A stretch of 64,000 nt of DNA from Acidobacteriaceae bacterium. Lineage in GTDB: Bacteria; Acidobacteriota; Terriglobia; Terriglobales; Acidobacteriaceae. A program made the position numbers and the translations under genes. Position 1 is the first letter of the stretch, and the number at the start of each line of letters is the position of its first letter. The notes below the pieces were generated by a model. The model did not search any database. It worked only from the letters and a program-made list of their open reading frames with translations, and was not told the origin of the DNA. Location of the stretch: positions 1-64,000 of the forward strand of contig JASHPJ010000070.1 of NCBI GenBank assembly GCA_030038195.1, written 5' to 3'. Positions 22,613 to 28,209 of this stretch are shown piece after piece.

Positions 22613-22655
22613 GAGTGAATGGTAGCGCGTTTAGTGATCCGGCCCTAGTCCTGAG

Positions 22656-22792
22656 TCAGAAGTTCGCATCACAAATAAGCTGTCATCTTGAGCGAATTTT
22701 GGCGCGTTTTGCGCCAAAATGAGTCGAAGGTCAAAGATCCGCCGTGGCGGAACCTGCGGTTCGGGGCTTCGACTTATGCTGCGAACTTCTGA
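22656..22792. repeat. Composite palindromic element with 13-bp terminal inverted repeats
   Basis: TCAGAAGTTCGCA (22656-22668) is the exact inverted repeat of TGCGAACTTCTGA (22780-22792). Between them an inner hairpin TTTTGGCGC-gtttt region-GCGCCAAAA (22697-22719) sits in a GTCATCTTGAGCGAA context. It fills the gap after the start of the FAD gene. No coding potential is evident; it resembles a small non-autonomous element. Confidence 0.55.
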
Positions 22793-22801
22793 TTCACCAC
22801 A

Positions 22802-22917
22802 CTAAAGCAATCCCAGCCTCTGCACGCCCTTTTGCAAGCACGCCAGACGGCTTTTTCTTGCGAAAAAAGCCGCTCCGCCGCAATGGCTCCGGGATAGAGC
22901 AGCTCTGGAACTGCTTC
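22802..22917. repeat. Nested palindrome element, copy 1 (about 112 bp)
   Basis: Outer arms AAGCAATCCCAG (22805-22816) and CTGGAACTGCTT (22905-22916) pair with two mismatches. The inner hairpin CGGCTTTTT / AAAAAGCCG spans about 22848-22872. It has the same size and layout as copies 2 and 3 (24489-24603, 28095-28209). Its right end touches the stop codon of the zinc-ribbon gene. Confidence 0.7.
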
Positions 22918-23212
22918 ACGGAGCCGGAGTGGCTTGCGCCCTGCCCTGCTTCTGAAAGCAGGAGCGGCAAAGCACGGGCCGGCCCTGCGTGGGTTTGAAC
23001 GGCACCGTCGTCTCCACTCCGCACTCGGAACAGGTGGTGCGGGTCTCGGGTCTTACTCGCTGCGTTCCGCGGGCGCGCTTTGCCTTGCACTGTTTACAGT
23101 GCTTGGGGTCATTTTTGAACTGTTTGTCGTGGAAAAACACCTGCTCGCCGGCGGTGAAGATGAACTCGGCGCCGCAGTCGCTGCACTTCAGTACTCGATC
23201 CCTGAATTCCAT
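22916..23212 (-). CDS. Small zinc-ribbon protein (CxxC-type)
   Basis: A 98-aa protein with four CxxC-type knuckles: CSDCGAEF, HCKQCKAKR, CSECG and CRSCF. They form two probable zinc ribbons, as in the CxxC-x17-CxxC small protein family. The start at 23212 follows GGGGAAG at good spacing and places the first ribbon at the N-terminus; a GTG at 23242 would add ten unremarkable residues. The function is unknown; it may be a nucleic-acid or protein-binding accessory. The 3' end abuts a nested palindrome element that supplies the last base before the stop region. Confidence 0.75.
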   Translation of the reverse strand: MEFRDRVLKCSDCGAEFIFTAGEQVFFHDKQFKNDPKHCKQCKAKRARGTQRVRPETRTTCSECGVETTVPFKPTQGRPVLCRSCFQKQGRAQATPAP

Positions 23213-23525
23213 GGCCAGGCTTCCCCGAGAAGGGACACGCACCGTAATCGGCCATAGCGCTGGATGCTTGCCGGTCGCGGTTCCCTGTCTTCGTTCTTGA
23301 TCACAACAAGGGCCCGGACCGCGTGAAAAGAAATGCGGCGTTTGGAGAGCCTTCCGGCGTGCGAACGGAAGGCATGCAATACAGATCGCCCGGCAACCGC
23401 CGAGCGATCAACCTAGCCAAAAATCGTGGTCCGTGCCGTCCGGTTTTGCTTATGCTCTGTCGCGGCTTCCACGACCAGGGCTGGGGAAGCCGCTCGGATC
23501 GGCGTTTGTTTCAATTCGATTTCTT
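23213..23525. other. Gap between the zinc-ribbon gene and rpsU with no recognised feature
   Basis: About 310 bp was read on both strands. Apart from the 5' leader of the zinc-ribbon gene and the downstream region of rpsU, it shows no convincing gene, tRNA or repeat. Small frames here lack ribosome binding sites and protein-like composition. Confidence 0.5.
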
Positions 23526-23723
23526 TTAATCCTGCTCTTTGCGAGCCTTCTTGCGATTCCGCTTGCGCGCCAAAGCTGCCTTGACGCGACGCTTCTCACC
23601 GGGCTTCAGGTAGTAGGAGTGACGCTTGACTTCCTTGATAATGTCCTCCTGTTGAACCTTCCGCTTGAACCGGCGCAGCGCATTCTCGAGCGGTTCGCCT
23701 TCCTGTATGCGAACCTCAGCCAA
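23526..23723 (-). CDS. rpsU: 30S ribosomal protein S21
   Basis: A 65-aa basic protein: MAEVRIQEGEPLENALRRFK, then the KRHSYYLKPGEKRR stretch and the lysine/arginine-rich tail typical of bS21. It sits in the small ribosomal subunit near the anti-Shine-Dalgarno region. GGAGG-like sequence (ccaccTCCAA on the plus strand) lies upstream of the ATG. It stands alone, without dnaG or rpoD nearby. Confidence 0.95.
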   Translation of the reverse strand: MAEVRIQEGEPLENALRRFKRKVQQEDIIKEVKRHSYYLKPGEKRRVKAALARKRNRKKARKEQD

Positions 23724-23930
23724 AGACTTCCACCTCCAAACCTGCCAGAAAGGCTGTGTTCATCATACTTGAGTTCCAGTCTGAAAACTACATAAACCGG
23801 GAATCCTTTGCGATTTCGCCACCCGGCTGGTGCAGGACGGCGGTAACTTTCGGGTAAACTTTTTCCCTGTCATGCCCATGGCTCGACCGTGCTTCCTGGG
23901 CCGCGTACACTTCATTTCGTGAGGTTTCCC

Positions 23931-24461
23931 ATGATCCGCAGCTACCAGGGCAAGCTGCCGCAGATCGGCGCGGGCTGTTATATTGATCCCTCGGCGCAAA
24001 TCTCAGGGGACGTGGCGATCGGCGACCGCTCCTCGGTGTGGATGAACGCCGTGCTCCGCGGCGACGTGAACGCGATCCGCGTGGGCTCCTGCTCCAACGT
24101 GCAGGACTGCACCGTGCTCCACGGGCAGCGCGATCTTTACCCGGTGATTGTGGGCGACTGGGTGACCATCGGCCACAACGCCACGGTGCACGGCTGCGTG
24201 GTGGAAGATGAGTGCCTGATCGGCATTGGCGCGCGGGTGCTCAACGACTGCCGCATCGGCAAGGGATCGATCATCGCGTCTGGCTCGGTGGTGCCCGAGC
24301 ACACCGTGGTGCCGCCGCGCACGCTGTGGGCCGGCGTGCCGGCCAAGATGCGCCGCGAGCTCACCGACAAGGACCGTGCACTGATCCTCGAATACGCGCA
24401 GAACTACCTGGACTACGTGGACTTCTATCTCGCCGAGGAAGGCGCGCTGAAACTGAAATAA
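23931..24461 (+). CDS. Gamma-carbonic anhydrase family protein
   Basis: A 176-aa left-handed beta-helix protein with hexapeptide repeats (SGDVAIGDRSSVWMNAVLRG, VLHGQRDLYPVIVGD, IGHNATVHGCVVEDECLIG). The metal-ligand histidines of the gamma class are present in TVLHG and in TIGHNATVHG. It is expected to form a trimer with zinc or iron at subunit interfaces; many family members are active CO2 hydratases, others are inactive relatives. ATG 23931 follows GAGG; an in-frame upstream extension is not family-like. Confidence 0.88.
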   Translation: MIRSYQGKLPQIGAGCYIDPSAQISGDVAIGDRSSVWMNAVLRGDVNAIRVGSCSNVQDCTVLHGQRDLYPVIVGDWVTIGHNATVHGCVVEDECLIGIGARVLNDCRIGKGSIIASGSVVPEHTVVPPRTLWAGVPAKMRRELTDKDRALILEYAQNYLDYVDFYLAEEGALKLK

Positions 24462-24488
24462 CCGGCTGCCGGTCCGGTACACTGCTCC

Positions 24489-24603
24489 TTAGAGCGGTTC
24501 CACAGTTTGTGTAGCCCTTTCCAGCTTCAAACGAGGTGGCTTTTTCTTGTTGAAAAAGCCACTTGGTTTCCCGGCTCCGGGATGCAGCAGCTGTGGAACC
24601 GCT
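24489..24603. repeat. Nested palindrome element, copy 2 (about 111 bp)
   Basis: Outer arms AGCGGTTCCACAG (24493-24505) and CTGTGGAACCGCT (24591-24603) are a perfect 13-bp inverted repeat. The inner hairpin GTGGCTTTTTC-ttgtt-GAAAAAGCCAC (24536-24562) is a perfect 11-bp stem. It lies between the carbonic anhydrase gene and the transporter gene, ending 37 bp before the transporter start. Confidence 0.8.
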
Positions 24604-24640
24604 GCGTCCCTCCCGAGCGCAAGGGCGAGGAACTTTGCGA

Positions 24641-26113
24641 ATGGCCCATCTCTATGTCGCCGTGCTGGCAGTCATCGTGGTTGCGCTGCTGGCGGTTGCT
24701 CTCTATCGCACCTTCAAGGTCAAGACCAAGGCCGATTACCTGGTAGCCGGCCGCTCGCTCTCCGCGCTGGTGCTGGTGCTCACCCTGCTCACCTCGTGGA
24801 TCGGCGCCGGCTCGCTCTTTGCCGGCGCGGAGAATGCTTACAAAAACGGCTTTGCCGCGCTCTGGCAGCCGGCTGGCGGATGGCTCGGCCTGGTGCTCAT
24901 CTACTTTATTGCTCCGCGGGCGCGCAAGTTTGCGCAGTTCACGCTGCCTGACCTGCTGGAAGCGCGCTATAACCAGACAGCGCGGGTGCTGGGGACCATC
25001 GCCATTCTCTTTGCCTTTACCGCCATCACCAGCTACCAGTTCCGCGGCGGCGGCGACGTGCTGCACCTCATCTTTCCTGACACGGTTTCAGCCGACCTGG
25101 GCACGTTCATCATCGCGGCCTTCGTCATCGTGACCACGGCCATGGCCGGCATGTCGTCGGTGGCGTACATGGACGTGGCGATCGGCTCGCTGGTCACCGT
25201 GATCTGCATCGTGGCCGCGCCGCTGCTGCTGGCCAAGGCCGGCGGATGGGCCGGCTTGCATGCCGCGCTTCCTCCGGCTTACTTTGAACCGCTAGGCAAC
25301 TACCGGCTCGGCCCCGGCGGGGTGGAGGAGTCGGTGGGCATGGGCATCATTCGCGGGCTCGAGTTCCTGGTACCCACGCTGCTGCTCATGCTCGGCAACC
25401 AGGTGATGTACCAGAAGTTCTTCTCGGCGCGCAGCGAGCGCGACGCGCGCATCTCCGTACTTGGCTGGACGCTGGGCACACTGGTCCTGGAAACGCTGAT
25501 CGTGGCTATCGCCGTCTTCGGGCGCGCGCTCTATCCCACCGGCGAGGTCGCGCTGCATCCACGCGAGATCATCCCTTACACGGCGCGCCACGGGCTGCCG
25601 GCGCTCATGGGCGCGCTGCTGCTGGGCGCGGTGTTTGCCAAGGTCATCTCCACGGCCTCGAACTTTCTGTTCTCGCCGGCCACCAACCTGGTGAACGATA
25701 TCTTTGTGCGCTACATGGCGCCCGAGGCGTCCAGCAAGCGCGTGCTGATTGTTTCGCGGCTGGCGGTGGTGCTGCTGGGCTGCTGGGCGCTTTACCAGGC
25801 GGTTTATGCCGAAAGCATCCTGGAAAAGATGCTCTACGCCTACACCATCTACTCCGCCGCGCTCACGCCGGTAGTGCTTGCCGCTTTCTATTCGAAGTGC
25901 GTAACGGCGTGGGGCGCCGTGGCGGCCATCGCCACCGGCACGGTGGTGACGCTGGCCTGGGACGCGCCCGGCTTCAAGGCGATCTTTCCGCCGATTCTTG
26001 TCCAGCGCGACGCCATCTTTCCGGCGCTCTTTGCCGCGGTGGCCGCCATGGTTGTGGTCAGCTTTTTCACGCCTGCGCCGGCAGCCGGGCAACTGGCGCA
26101 GTTCTCTGACTAG
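24641..26113 (+). CDS. Sodium:solute symporter family (SSS) transporter
   Basis: A 490-aa polytopic membrane protein with about 13 hydrophobic segments. The N-terminal DYLVAGRSLSALVLVLTLL, GAGSLFAGAENAYKNGFAAL and the later LGNQVMYQKFFSARSERDAR are typical of the SSS (LeuT-fold) family. It would import an organic solute with Na+; the substrate is unknown. ATG 24641 follows GGGCGAGG; the upstream in-frame extension crosses the palindrome element and is rejected. Confidence 0.87.
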   Translation: MAHLYVAVLAVIVVALLAVALYRTFKVKTKADYLVAGRSLSALVLVLTLLTSWIGAGSLFAGAENAYKNGFAALWQPAGGWLGLVLIYFIAPRARKFAQFTLPDLLEARYNQTARVLGTIAILFAFTAITSYQFRGGGDVLHLIFPDTVSADLGTFIIAAFVIVTTAMAGMSSVAYMDVAIGSLVTVICIVAAPLLLAKAGGWAGLHAALPPAYFEPLGNYRLGPGGVEESVGMGIIRGLEFLVPTLLLMLGNQVMYQKFFSARSERDARISVLGWTLGTLVLETLIVAIAVFGRALYPTGEVALHPREIIPYTARHGLPALMGALLLGAVFAKVISTASNFLFSPATNLVNDIFVRYMAPEASSKRVLIVSRLAVVLLGCWALYQAVYAESILEKMLYAYTIYSAALTPVVLAAFYSKCVTAWGAVAAIATGTVVTLAWDAPGFKAIFPPILVQRDAIFPALFAAVAAMVVVSFFTPAPAAGQLAQFSD

Positions 26114-26226
26114 TCTTGATGCAGCGCGGCATGCGCGGTTCCTGGCTACGGCGACACGCTGCGAAGAAAAATCTGCGATGGTGCCGGCAATCGGTCTTAC
26201 ACTGTCGGTGGAAATCCTTCAGCCGC

Positions 26227-26523
26227 ATGCCTATCGCCCAACTTACTCTCGAAGTGCGCATCGAGCGGGCGCAGTCGCTCAAGGACCGCCGGCAGGTGGT
26301 GCGCTCGCTCAAAGACCAGTTGCGGCAGAGCTTCAATGTGTCGGTGGCGGAGATGGACGAGGCTGTCACGTGGCAGTCGGCCACCATCGGCGTAGCGGCC
26401 ATCTCACGCTCGCGTGATTACCTGCACGGGTTGATGGAAGAGCTGGACCGCGCCGCGCGGCGCATGACCAACGAGCTGGGCGTGGAGCTGGCAGACTCGT
26501 TCTGGGAGTATCTGGAAAGCTGA
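26227..26523 (+). CDS. DUF503 / YlxP-like ribosome-associated protein
   Basis: A 98-aa DUF503 protein: LTLEVRIERAQSLKDRRQVV, VRSLKDQLRQSFNVSVAE and ATIGVAAIS are characteristic. In many bacteria ylxP lies between infB and rbfA; YlxP has been linked to ribosome assembly. Here rbfA is 1.9 kb downstream on the same strand, separated by accessory sequence. The ATG at 26227 is chosen to fit the family length (about 95 aa). Confidence 0.85.
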   Translation: MPIAQLTLEVRIERAQSLKDRRQVVRSLKDQLRQSFNVSVAEMDEAVTWQSATIGVAAISRSRDYLHGLMEELDRAARRMTNELGVELADSFWEYLES

Positions 26524-26543
26524 AGAGCGGCTGGCGCGGATTC

Positions 26544-26594
26544 GTGCTTTCCCACCTTCGCCGTCTACCACGGCGGACGGTGAAGGTGGGACAC
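26544..26594. repeat. Palindromic repeat related to the GTGCCCCATCC family
   Basis: GTGCTTTCCCACCTTCGCCG is mirrored by CGGTGAAGGTGGGACAC. The core stem is CCCACCTTC (26551-26559) with GAAGGTGGG (26582-26590), and a small inner pair CCGTC/GACGG adds to it. It sits directly after the ylxP-like gene and could also act as a terminator. Confidence 0.55.
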
Positions 26595-26637
26595 TCATGT
26601 TTGTGCTTTGCCGGCTGTTTCCTGCCGGACTTCTATT

Positions 26638-27051
26638 TCAGTGCATGGGCTTTTCGTGAATCAGCATCCAGTTCACGCCGAACCTGTCGCGGAACTGGGC
26701 GAAGCGGTGAGCGAAAAAGGTCTCGGCGAGGGGCATGAAGACCTCGCCTCCGGCACTCAGCGCGGCATAGATGCGCTCGGCTTCCTGGTTGCTGTCCACG
26801 GTGAGCGCCAGGTAGGCGCTGCGCATGGGCTGCACGCGCTCCGCAGGGCCGTCGCTGGCCATCACGACGCCGTCGCCAAGTTGAAAGCGGGCGTGGAGGA
26901 CGCCCTTTTCGAGTCCCGGCGGGATCGTCTTGGGATCCGGCATCTGATCGAAGGTCATGGTGGAAAGAATCCTGGCGCCGAGATGCTGCTCATAAAAGCG
27001 CAGCGCTTCAGCGCAGTTGCCGGGAAAGTTCAGATAGGTGTTCAGCTTCAT
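26638..27051 (-). CDS. VOC-family (PhnB-like) protein
   Basis: A 137-aa glyoxalase/bleomycin-resistance fold protein: LNTYLNFPGNCAEALRFYEQ, MASDGPAERVQPMRS and NWMLIHEKPMH match the PhnB/VOC type. Such small proteins are usually of unknown substrate. The start codon overlaps the end of the HxlR gene by 4 bp, so they are cotranscribed, and the regulator probably controls it. Confidence 0.85.
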   Translation of the reverse strand: MKLNTYLNFPGNCAEALRFYEQHLGARILSTMTFDQMPDPKTIPPGLEKGVLHARFQLGDGVVMASDGPAERVQPMRSAYLALTVDSNQEAERIYAALSAGGEVFMPLAETFFAHRFAQFRDRFGVNWMLIHEKPMH

Positions 27052-27545
27052 TGGCTCGATTTTCCTTTCCGGGATTGGAGGGTTGCGGATTTTTCAGAGG
27101 TGGTGAAGGGTGGAAGAATGGGCGTGGGGTCGCGCTCCTTCCAGCGGCGATAGGTTTCAGCCAGCACGGCGGCGCGGTTCTGCTCCATGTGGTCGATCAC
27201 CGCACAAGGCGCAGCGGTTTCCTCGTGATGCGCGCCCCAGACGAGCAGCTCCAGCATGGCCGGGGCCAGGGCGATGCCTTTTTTGGTGAGCCGGTAATAC
27301 AGGCTGCGGCCATCTTCGGCTGCCGGCTCGGTGTAAAGGATGCCGCCGGCCTCGAGCCTCCTGAGCCGGTCGGCCAGGATGTTGGTGGCGATGCCTTCGC
27401 CGGAGCGCAGGAACTCGCCGAACGTACGATAGCCGCGCACCATCAGGTCGCGCACGATGAGCAGCGACCAGCGGTCGCCGAGCAGTTCCAGGGCCATGCT
27501 CACCGGGCACCCGGAACGCGGCTGCGCGATGGATTTCCTGGGCAC
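27048..27545 (-). CDS. HxlR-family transcriptional regulator
   Basis: A 165-aa winged-helix protein with the HxlR signature CPVSMALELLGDRWSLLIVRD, then FGEFLRSGEGIATNILADRL and a beta-wing YRLTKKGIALAP. The cysteine near the N-terminus is typical and redox-sensitive in some members. The start is GTG. It is the first gene of a two-gene unit with the VOC protein. Confidence 0.88.
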   Translation of the reverse strand: MPRKSIAQPRSGCPVSMALELLGDRWSLLIVRDLMVRGYRTFGEFLRSGEGIATNILADRLRRLEAGGILYTEPAAEDGRSLYYRLTKKGIALAPAMLELLVWGAHHEETAAPCAVIDHMEQNRAAVLAETYRRWKERDPTPILPPFTTSEKSATLQSRKGKSSQ

Positions 27546-27650
27546 GAGGGCATCATAATCAAATTAACTTGCAAATTGCAATTGAGAGTGGTAGGAATGT
27601 CGATGCTGCAGCGCATGCGGCCAGTTCTTCCTAACTCAGGTGGTTTTCTG

Positions 27651-28072
27651 ATGTGTGCTCTTGCAAGCTCCTCACGCATTTCGCCGTTTCTCTGGTTCGA
27701 CTCGAACGCCGAAGAGGCCGTCGACTTTTACCTTTCGATCTTCGAGAACTCGCGCAAGCTTGAGGTGCTGCGCAACAACGGCGTTGCGCCGGGACCGAAG
27801 GACGGCGTCCTGACCATCGCCTTCGAGCTCGATGGGGCTCCGTTCACCGCGCTCAACGGCGGGCCTGCGCACTCGTTCACTGATACTGGTCGCGGCTCAC
27901 CGAGGGCGGCACGGAGGTGGCCTGTGGCTGGCTGCGCGATCGGTTCGGGCTCTCCTGGCAGGTGGTTCCGGCGCGGATTACGGAGCTGCTTCGGAGTCCG
28001 AAAGCGATGCAGGCCATGATGGGCATGAAGAAGCTGGATATCGCAGCGCTGGAGCGCACTGCGGAGGGCTGA
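27651..28072 (+). pseudogene. Broken PhnB-like VOC gene (internal deletion with frameshift)
   Basis: The first frame encodes a good N-terminal half (ISPFLWFDSNAEEAVDFYL, then VLTIAFELDGAPFTALNGG) up to about 27888. The second half continues in another frame: WSRLTEGGTEVACGWLRD, FGLSWQVVPARITELLRS, PKAMQAMMGMKKLDIAALER, then a TGA at 28070-28072. Together they are the two ends of one PhnB-like protein of about 155 aa. The segment between GPAHSFT and YYWSRL is missing, a deletion of roughly 45-55 nt that is not a multiple of three. The gene is therefore inactive, unless the sequence contains an error here. Confidence 0.75.
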
Positions 28073-28094
28073 TACCGCCAGGACCGGGACATAC

Positions 28095-28209
28095 AGCAGT
28101 TTTCCAGTTGCTGTAAGGCGAAGCCGCTACTCTCCAGTGCCTTTTTCCTCAAGAAAAAGGCACCTTGTACGCCGCTGGCTATACCACATGAACTGGAAAA
28201 CTGCTCTAG
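28095..28209. repeat. Nested palindrome element, copy 3 (about 111 bp)
   Basis: Outer arms AGCAGTTTTCCAGTT (28095-28109) and AACTGGAAAACTGCT (28191-28205) form a perfect 15-bp inverted repeat. The inner hairpin GTGCCTTTTTC-ctcaa-GAAAAAGGCAC (28137-28163) is a perfect 11-bp stem. The right end directly meets the truncated end of an ISAs1-like transposase remnant. Confidence 0.8.

Follow-up and report, generated by a model that had tools for sequence, protein, structure and literature searches.

We analysed a 64,000-nucleotide stretch of an Acidobacteriaceae bacterium (assembly GCA_030038195.1, contig JASHPJ010000070.1, positions 1 to 64,000; hereafter, the window), in which a first-pass annotation made from the letters alone had reported three nested inverted repeats. 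All three are present in the sequence (Table 1), and our results indicate that they are very probably members of a high-copy family of miniature inverted-repeat transposable elements (MITEs) of about 117 bp, presumably moved by an IS630-type transposase acting in trans. The element opens with TA-NAGC, followed by an arm of about 12 variable bases, a subterminal stretch and a core hairpin of the type GTGGCTTTTTC-TTGA-GGAAAAAGCCAC; after the core come a second subterminal stretch and the reverse complement of the arm, ending in GCTN-TA.

The annotated length of about 111 bp from outer end to outer end becomes 116-117 bp once the flanking TA is included. The arms had been listed in the wrong order, and read CAATCCCAG in copy 1, CGGTTCCACAG in copy 2 and CAGTTTTCCAG in copy 3. 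Furthermore, the two mismatches ascribed to copy 1 understated its decay, as its arms agree at only 6 of the 12 compared positions. When folded as single-stranded DNA, copies 2 and 3 were far more stable than their shuffled versions (z -7.93 and -7.17, respectively, with 0 of 200 shuffles as good), and copy 1 was not clearly above its shuffles (z -1.07, 28 of 200 as good).

Table 1. Positions of the three nested repeats of the window and of their parts
Feature	Position	Strand	Details
Copy 1 (decayed probable MITE with flanking TA)	22803..22918	+	arms AAGCAATCCCAG / CTCTGGAACTGCTT, 6/12 agreeing; covariance-model match 89.3 bits
Copy 1 inner hairpin	22848..22872	+	CGGCTTTTTC...GAAAAAAGCCG; from sequence and alignment
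Copy 2 (probable MITE)	24490..24606	+	arms GAGCGGTTCCACAG / CTGTGGAACCGCT; covariance-model match 106.6 bits
Copy 2 inner hairpin	24536..24562	+	GTGGCTTTTTC TTGTT GAAAAAGCCAC; from sequence, alignment and fold
Copy 2 right terminal inverted repeat	24590..24606	+	partner 24490-24507
Copy 3 (probable MITE, reverse orientation)	28092..28208	-	arms GAGCAGTTTTCCAGTT, no mismatch, 12/12 agreeing; covariance-model match 107 bits
Copy 3 inner hairpin	28137..28163	-	GTGCCTTTTTC TTGAG GAAAAAGGCAC; compensated GC-CG change with respect to copy 2
Copy 3 left terminal inverted repeat	28191..28208	-	TAGAGCAGTTTTCCAGTT; partner 28092-28109

Copy 2 is flanked by genes for a hexapeptide-repeat protein (PF00132) and for a sodium:solute symporter (PF00474). 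The right end of copy 1 (GCTTCA, 22913-22918) provides the TGA stop of a minus-strand gene for a treble-clef zinc finger protein (22916-23242; PF13451/PF23477), and the insertion of copy 1 may have set the present 3' end of this gene. The left TA of copy 1 adjoins a second palindromic repeat family (22648-22803), both elements ending at the same TA. This second family has arms TGAGTCAGAAGTTCGCA / TGCGAACTTCTGATTCA and GTGTCCTGAGTC-like ends beside the TA. At E<=0.01 it is matched 41 times in the own genome, a count that takes in the element beside copy 1 and a 22-base fragment; judging by its ends, it may be another TA-targeting MITE.

Copy number, target sites and bursts

A covariance-model search, which the first-pass annotation had put forward as a check, was run on the own genome and on relatives, and returned far more than three copies with strong covariation. 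With copy 2 as a nucleotide query, 69 matches were found in the own genome; the number rose to 143 at E<=1 with a covariance model built on 21 own copies. In both searches, some matches correspond to one place on both strands. After removal of second-strand and duplicate rows, at least 104 distinct own-genome places remained among the best 150 of 200 rows, some of them half or decayed elements. At E<=0.001, the covariance model matched 35 of the 60 genomes searched. These comprise 32 of the 36 genus genomes (both totals, 60 and 36, count the own genome) and 3 of the 14 from another family within the order; none of the 10 from elsewhere in the class was matched. A search of named genomes for an exact 28-base core pattern yielded 73 stretches, every one from a record with Acidobacteriaceae, Granulicella or Terracidiphilus in its title.

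For comparative purposes, the best 150 of the 200 aligned own rows were joined to 54 rows from relatives and second-strand and duplicate rows were removed, leaving a set of 133 copies, which still includes some half or decayed ones. Their lengths ranged from 93 to 129 bp (median 117), and no gene was seen within the elements of about 117 bp. The family therefore has the general features of bacterial MITEs, being short (50-500 bp), devoid of a transposase gene and present in many copies. As a check on intragenic location, stop-free frames were counted and found at 46 of 97 copies, compared with 718 of 1000 random placements, which is a depletion, by a test that is not clean in GC-rich DNA. Chance palindromes were rejected as an explanation, given the 143 genome matches and the arm agreement and covariation above controls described below.

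TA was found at both termini in 87 of the 133 copies (left in 103, right in 108). The base preceding it was T or C in 93 of 102 cases and the one following it was G in 76 of 108, which makes Y-TA-G (more broadly, Y-TA-R) the predominant target. The ends share the frame TA-NAGC-R, followed by about 10 variable bases, and many right ends carry on with a GCTRTA-like motif. Three nested insertions were identified, and in each of them removal of the inner element with one TA restores the host copy: a GGTTCCAGGAT-type copy within a AGAATCCGGGT-type copy (L024 compared with L032), a AGTTTTCCAG-type copy within a AGTTCTCC-type copy (L058 compared with L110, L114 and L116), and a 158-bp element within a GGTTCCACAG-type copy (L009/L004 compared with L003); in a fourth, L033, the fit is out of register by two bases. 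Such restoration is what a MITE with target site duplication would leave, a TA borne by the element itself being an alternative. The 158-bp element (L009:1541-1698; G000 C66, about 78.83-78.98 kb) displays the end frame of the family with a different core, which includes a GCAGATCCTTCGACTCC / TCAGGATGACA-like stretch; thus, the same ends can carry other cores.

Six letter-identical copies were found in one metagenome-assembled genome (MAG) at six unrelated sites, with TA on both sides. Likewise, the 6.4-Mb genome G020 has at least 150 matches, of which at least 51 share one score; all 17 of these that were fetched (17/17) proved letter-identical and lie at unrelated sites, and burst copies occur on contigs C13, C23, C24 and many others. 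Such identity between copies whose sites are unrelated speaks for recent bursts, that of G020 seemingly a very recent one, and it is from such copies, in both genomes, that we infer the mobility expected of a MITE. Orthologous empty sites between species were not obtained, the rows listed aligning at 68-85%.

Covariation and stepwise change of the arms

The arms behave as terminal inverted repeats: the left and right arms of one copy agree on average at 9.98 of 12 positions among the 133 copies, compared with 6.04 for shuffled partners (maximum 6.72 in 2000 shuffles). For the analysis of covariation, 60 diverse copies were selected from this set (length 112-127, recognisable left end, similarity of at most 0.90) and aligned without structure, the structure being taken from one copy. 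Pairing was found in 91.7% of the cells, and 22 of 27 pairs had changed on both sides, such double changes affecting 12 of 15 pairs of the outer stem and 10 of 12 pairs of the inner stem. The covariation score was 0.452. Shuffled partners gave 0.182, with 0 of 500 shuffles reaching the observed value, and slid partners did not exceed 0.149; more weight falls on the slid control, as related sequences can exceed shuffles without any structure.

The mismatches that remain are distributed almost evenly, with 28 G.T and 29 A.C in the outer stem and 23 G.T and 33 A.C in the inner stem. This count leaves out the outer pair 18:124, unpaired in 32 of 60 copies, and the basal pair of the inner stem, 65:95, which is G.T in 51 of 60 and whose inclusion would put G.T above A.C in that stem. 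A selected RNA strand would give more G-U than A-C; since the counts are about equal, the constraint appears symmetric and DNA-like, and a DNA-level constraint fits this symmetry better than a one-strand RNA fold does.

Comparisons between copies indicate how the arms change. Pairs of copies with at least 95% identity displayed 39 single and 0 double changes; those with 85-95% identity, 824 single and 73 double; those with 70-85%, 3505 and 1871; and those with 50-70%, 44040 single changes and 70313 compensated doubles, pairs below 50% being excluded and the pairs compared not being independent of each other. As double changes grow with distance, the arms seem to change stepwise through half-matched states. 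Two copies, L060:1501-1617 (+) and L028:1498-1626 (-), pair a left arm of one type with a right arm of another, as would result from recombination at or close to the core hairpin; the clear chimeras are given as L016/L060 and L028, with L142:685-800 perhaps a third. Wholesale arm swapping was rejected as the usual route of change, the doubles accumulating stepwise with distance.

The best-surviving alternative for the pairing, above all that of the inner stem, is a mutational one, namely that mismatches are corrected when replication switches template from one arm to the other, a process that has been described (PMC8794818; PMC8604942). It would account for the near symmetry of G.T and A.C and for covariation in an inner stem that is no terminal repeat. 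However, the closest copies, with their single changes only, and the rise of doubles with distance speak against it, and some template switches would be expected to leave inverted loops, of which none was seen: among the 78 of 133 copies that could be oriented by the right-end motif, the loop was TTGA in 48, TCAA in 0 and other in 30. Mutation followed by correction may still be a source of the pairing, although we consider this reading less likely than not.

Far less probable is a structured RNA or mRNA stability element, in which the nested stems would be kept since the transcript must fold. Strong covariation of both stems, the folding of copies 2 and 3 far above shuffles (calculated with DNA parameters) and the G.T in the basal pair 65:95 would agree with it, and some bacterial MITEs (Correia, ERIC) act in mRNA, according to the available part of PMC2229807. 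However, an RNA of fixed orientation tolerates G-U but not A-C, and the two counts are about equal when pair 65:95 is set aside; furthermore, transposition alone suffices to explain why identical copies lie at unrelated TA sites. The only Rfam family found in the window at gathering score was RNase P, which also argues against an RNA element, and an already curated RNA family was rejected on this ground. A conserved RNA fold as the main cause was rejected on the near equality of the mismatches. The first-pass annotation had left the choice between selection on the fold and a mobility mechanism that needs both arms; the former, taken as a one-strand RNA fold, is not supported, given the mismatch symmetry, and the latter is supported by TA restoration, identical copies and IS630-like ends.

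Relation to IS630-family elements and other mobile repeats

Candidate source elements were sought among insertion sequences (ISs) in two ways. PF13358 was searched in 40 genomes of the genus, of which 25 matched at E<=0.001, and 30 loci were taken; in addition, one transposase protein was compared with 80 genus genomes at E<=1e-25, giving 28 matches in 16 of them. These searches led to elements of about 1016-1069 bp (1060 or 1181 in L177) bounded by TA-GAGC-R ends; in these elements, a helix-turn-helix open frame overlaps a DDE open frame. The DDE protein passed the cut-off of the IS630 equivalog NF033545 in the 3 elements tested; a Pfam scan that read straight through one entire IS, its stops written as X, returned no family, the two open frames of the IS lying in different frames.

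Several of these IS630 elements share the left/right asymmetry of the repeats, in that the right end goes on with a TTGCTGTAG-like sequence and the left end does not. When the ends of the repeats were compared with 30 IS ends, hand-picked from the IS loci read, the right end agreed at 14 or more of 20 positions in 106 of the 133 copies and the left end in 58, whereas 99.9% of 20000 random 20-mers from the window reached at most 13 of 20, the best reaching 15. One own-genome arm type, ATTTCTCCTATT, matched the L204 IS end at 19 of 20 positions. The repeats thereby share ends with an IS630-family element, as a MITE dependent on IS630 would. Of the loci checked for the core pattern (L150-L199), L171 and L172 alone contained it, next to an IS fragment.

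A REPIN, that is, a pair of REP palindromes moved by a RAYT (Y1) transposase, has a similar size and inverted doublet layout, and the right end of the repeats holds a short imperfect palindrome (TAYAGC...GCTRTA); nevertheless, such an origin is the least credible of those considered, and was rejected, because in the own genome Y1_Tnp occurs at two places only (C112:12.4-12.8 kb and C153:25.2 kb), neither of them flanked by a listed copy (the nearest at C112:39.8 kb and C153:20.1 kb), and the TA ends, the TA restoration at nested sites and the likeness of the ends fit IS630.

Elements of this kind are known from other bacteria, to which the present family was likened by description and on the available parts of the sources. 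RUP is 107 bp long, with 108 intergenic copies, TA targets, IS630-like ends and a fold with paired terminal repeats (PMC2229807, PMC3049150); the likeness to RUP and IS630-Spn1 lies in size, copy number, TA and IS630-like ends. The host phylum differs, RUP ends are described as similar to one IS whereas the present family joins one core to many arm words, and for the window arms no exact IS partner was found. ERIC / IRU, of 127 bp, is described in like terms, its terminal repeats and terminal 5'-TA being accompanied by a duplication of the target (PMC2229807); ERIC has 7 contiguous paired bp (PMC2229807), compared with about 14-15 paired outer positions and an inner stem of about 11 bp here. 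The Correia/NEMIS elements of Neisseria (about 107 and 155 bp) are similar in size, TA termini and terminal repeats, the latter of 24 bp, and arm diversity of the present kind is not mentioned for them in the available part of PMC2229807. Finally, ISY100 inserts into TA with TA duplication, as expected for the IS630-Tc1-mariner group and as is probably the case here, and its transposase binds the terminal repeats through an N-terminal domain with two helix-turn-helix motifs (available part of PMC2170065); ISY100 is autonomous with a single protein, whereas the IS630 elements of the genus have helix-turn-helix and DDE in two overlapping open frames and the repeat family has no gene.

With the integration of these findings, we propose that an IS630-type transposase, supplied in trans, would bind the variable segment at both ends of the repeat, cut the element out and paste it into a TA, which would be duplicated. 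The two arms would change together because one enzyme must bind both ends, and subfamilies with different but self-matching arms would therefore arise, which is the compensation described in the first-pass annotation; the "compensating" outer arms are presumably terminal repeats bound by one transposase. The inner hairpin would be a shared core, also kept palindromic, apparently at the DNA level; most likely it helps to bring the ends together, as a cruciform or bend, or reflects palindrome correction in replication. The stepwise change of the outer stem fits two binding sites of one transposase; that of the inner stem does not by itself.

Several observations weigh against an IS630-dependent MITE family as proposed here. 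Recognition of terminal repeats leaves the covariation of the inner hairpin (10 of 12 pairs) unexplained; in 46 of the 133 copies, TA is missing from at least one end, and the nested sites fit a duplicated TA and an element-carried TA alike. No autonomous IS630 element with the exact arms of the window was found in the 80 genus genomes searched with one transposase or in the 40 searched with PF13358, and the best IS-end matches of the window copies reached 14-15 of 20 for right ends and 9-13 of 20 for left ends. The MAG with six identical copies had no DDE_3 match above cut-off. By hand count, only 9 of 12 positions are shared between the G020 burst arm, GGTTCTCCAATT, and the IS end resident in that genome, ATTTCTCCTATT, and the 13 IS loci read there contained no exact partner for it. 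As for the own genome, it had no match at E<=1e-25 to the transposase of the best-fitting clade, and only three partial DDE_3 matches, located at contig starts.

In the own genome (G000), the starts of contigs C152, C137 and C17 (L182, L180 and L181) fall within the 3' portions of IS630 elements that closely resemble one another, probably a multi-copy IS breaking the assembly; we infer that draft assemblies often miss or break such multi-copy elements. The ends of the own partial IS630 copies read TAGAGCATTTTCGATTTAAGTG, and their first 13 bases are common to the MITE arm type ATTTTCGG.

No earlier account of this repeat family was found in the open full-text literature on acidobacteria, MITEs and IS630, subscription papers lying outside this scope; the words IS630 and Acidobact are absent from a MITE review (PMC10969869), and MITE and IS630 from an Acidobacteria genome paper (PMC5900883). 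Within the literature searched, it is so far new as a family, of a kind already known. Its unusual trait is the combination of one shared core hairpin with many pairs of self-matching arm words. Tentatively, and with more doubt than confidence, this could correspond to a MITE chassis, in which one palindromic core persists across the genus and the paired ends drift stepwise through self-matching words, each drivable by a different IS630 lineage. If so, no single transposase would be indispensable, as the family could re-specify its ends when one is lost, and involvement in transposition would place the core hairpin under a DNA-level pairing constraint of its own. As the family covaries like a structured RNA, it could mislead searches for such RNAs, and the count of G.T against A.C mismatches offers a simple way to separate DNA palindromes from them. 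Furthermore, a series of self-matching ends on one core, beside IS630 elements with diverse ends, could allow the co-evolution of transposases and terminal repeats to be studied.

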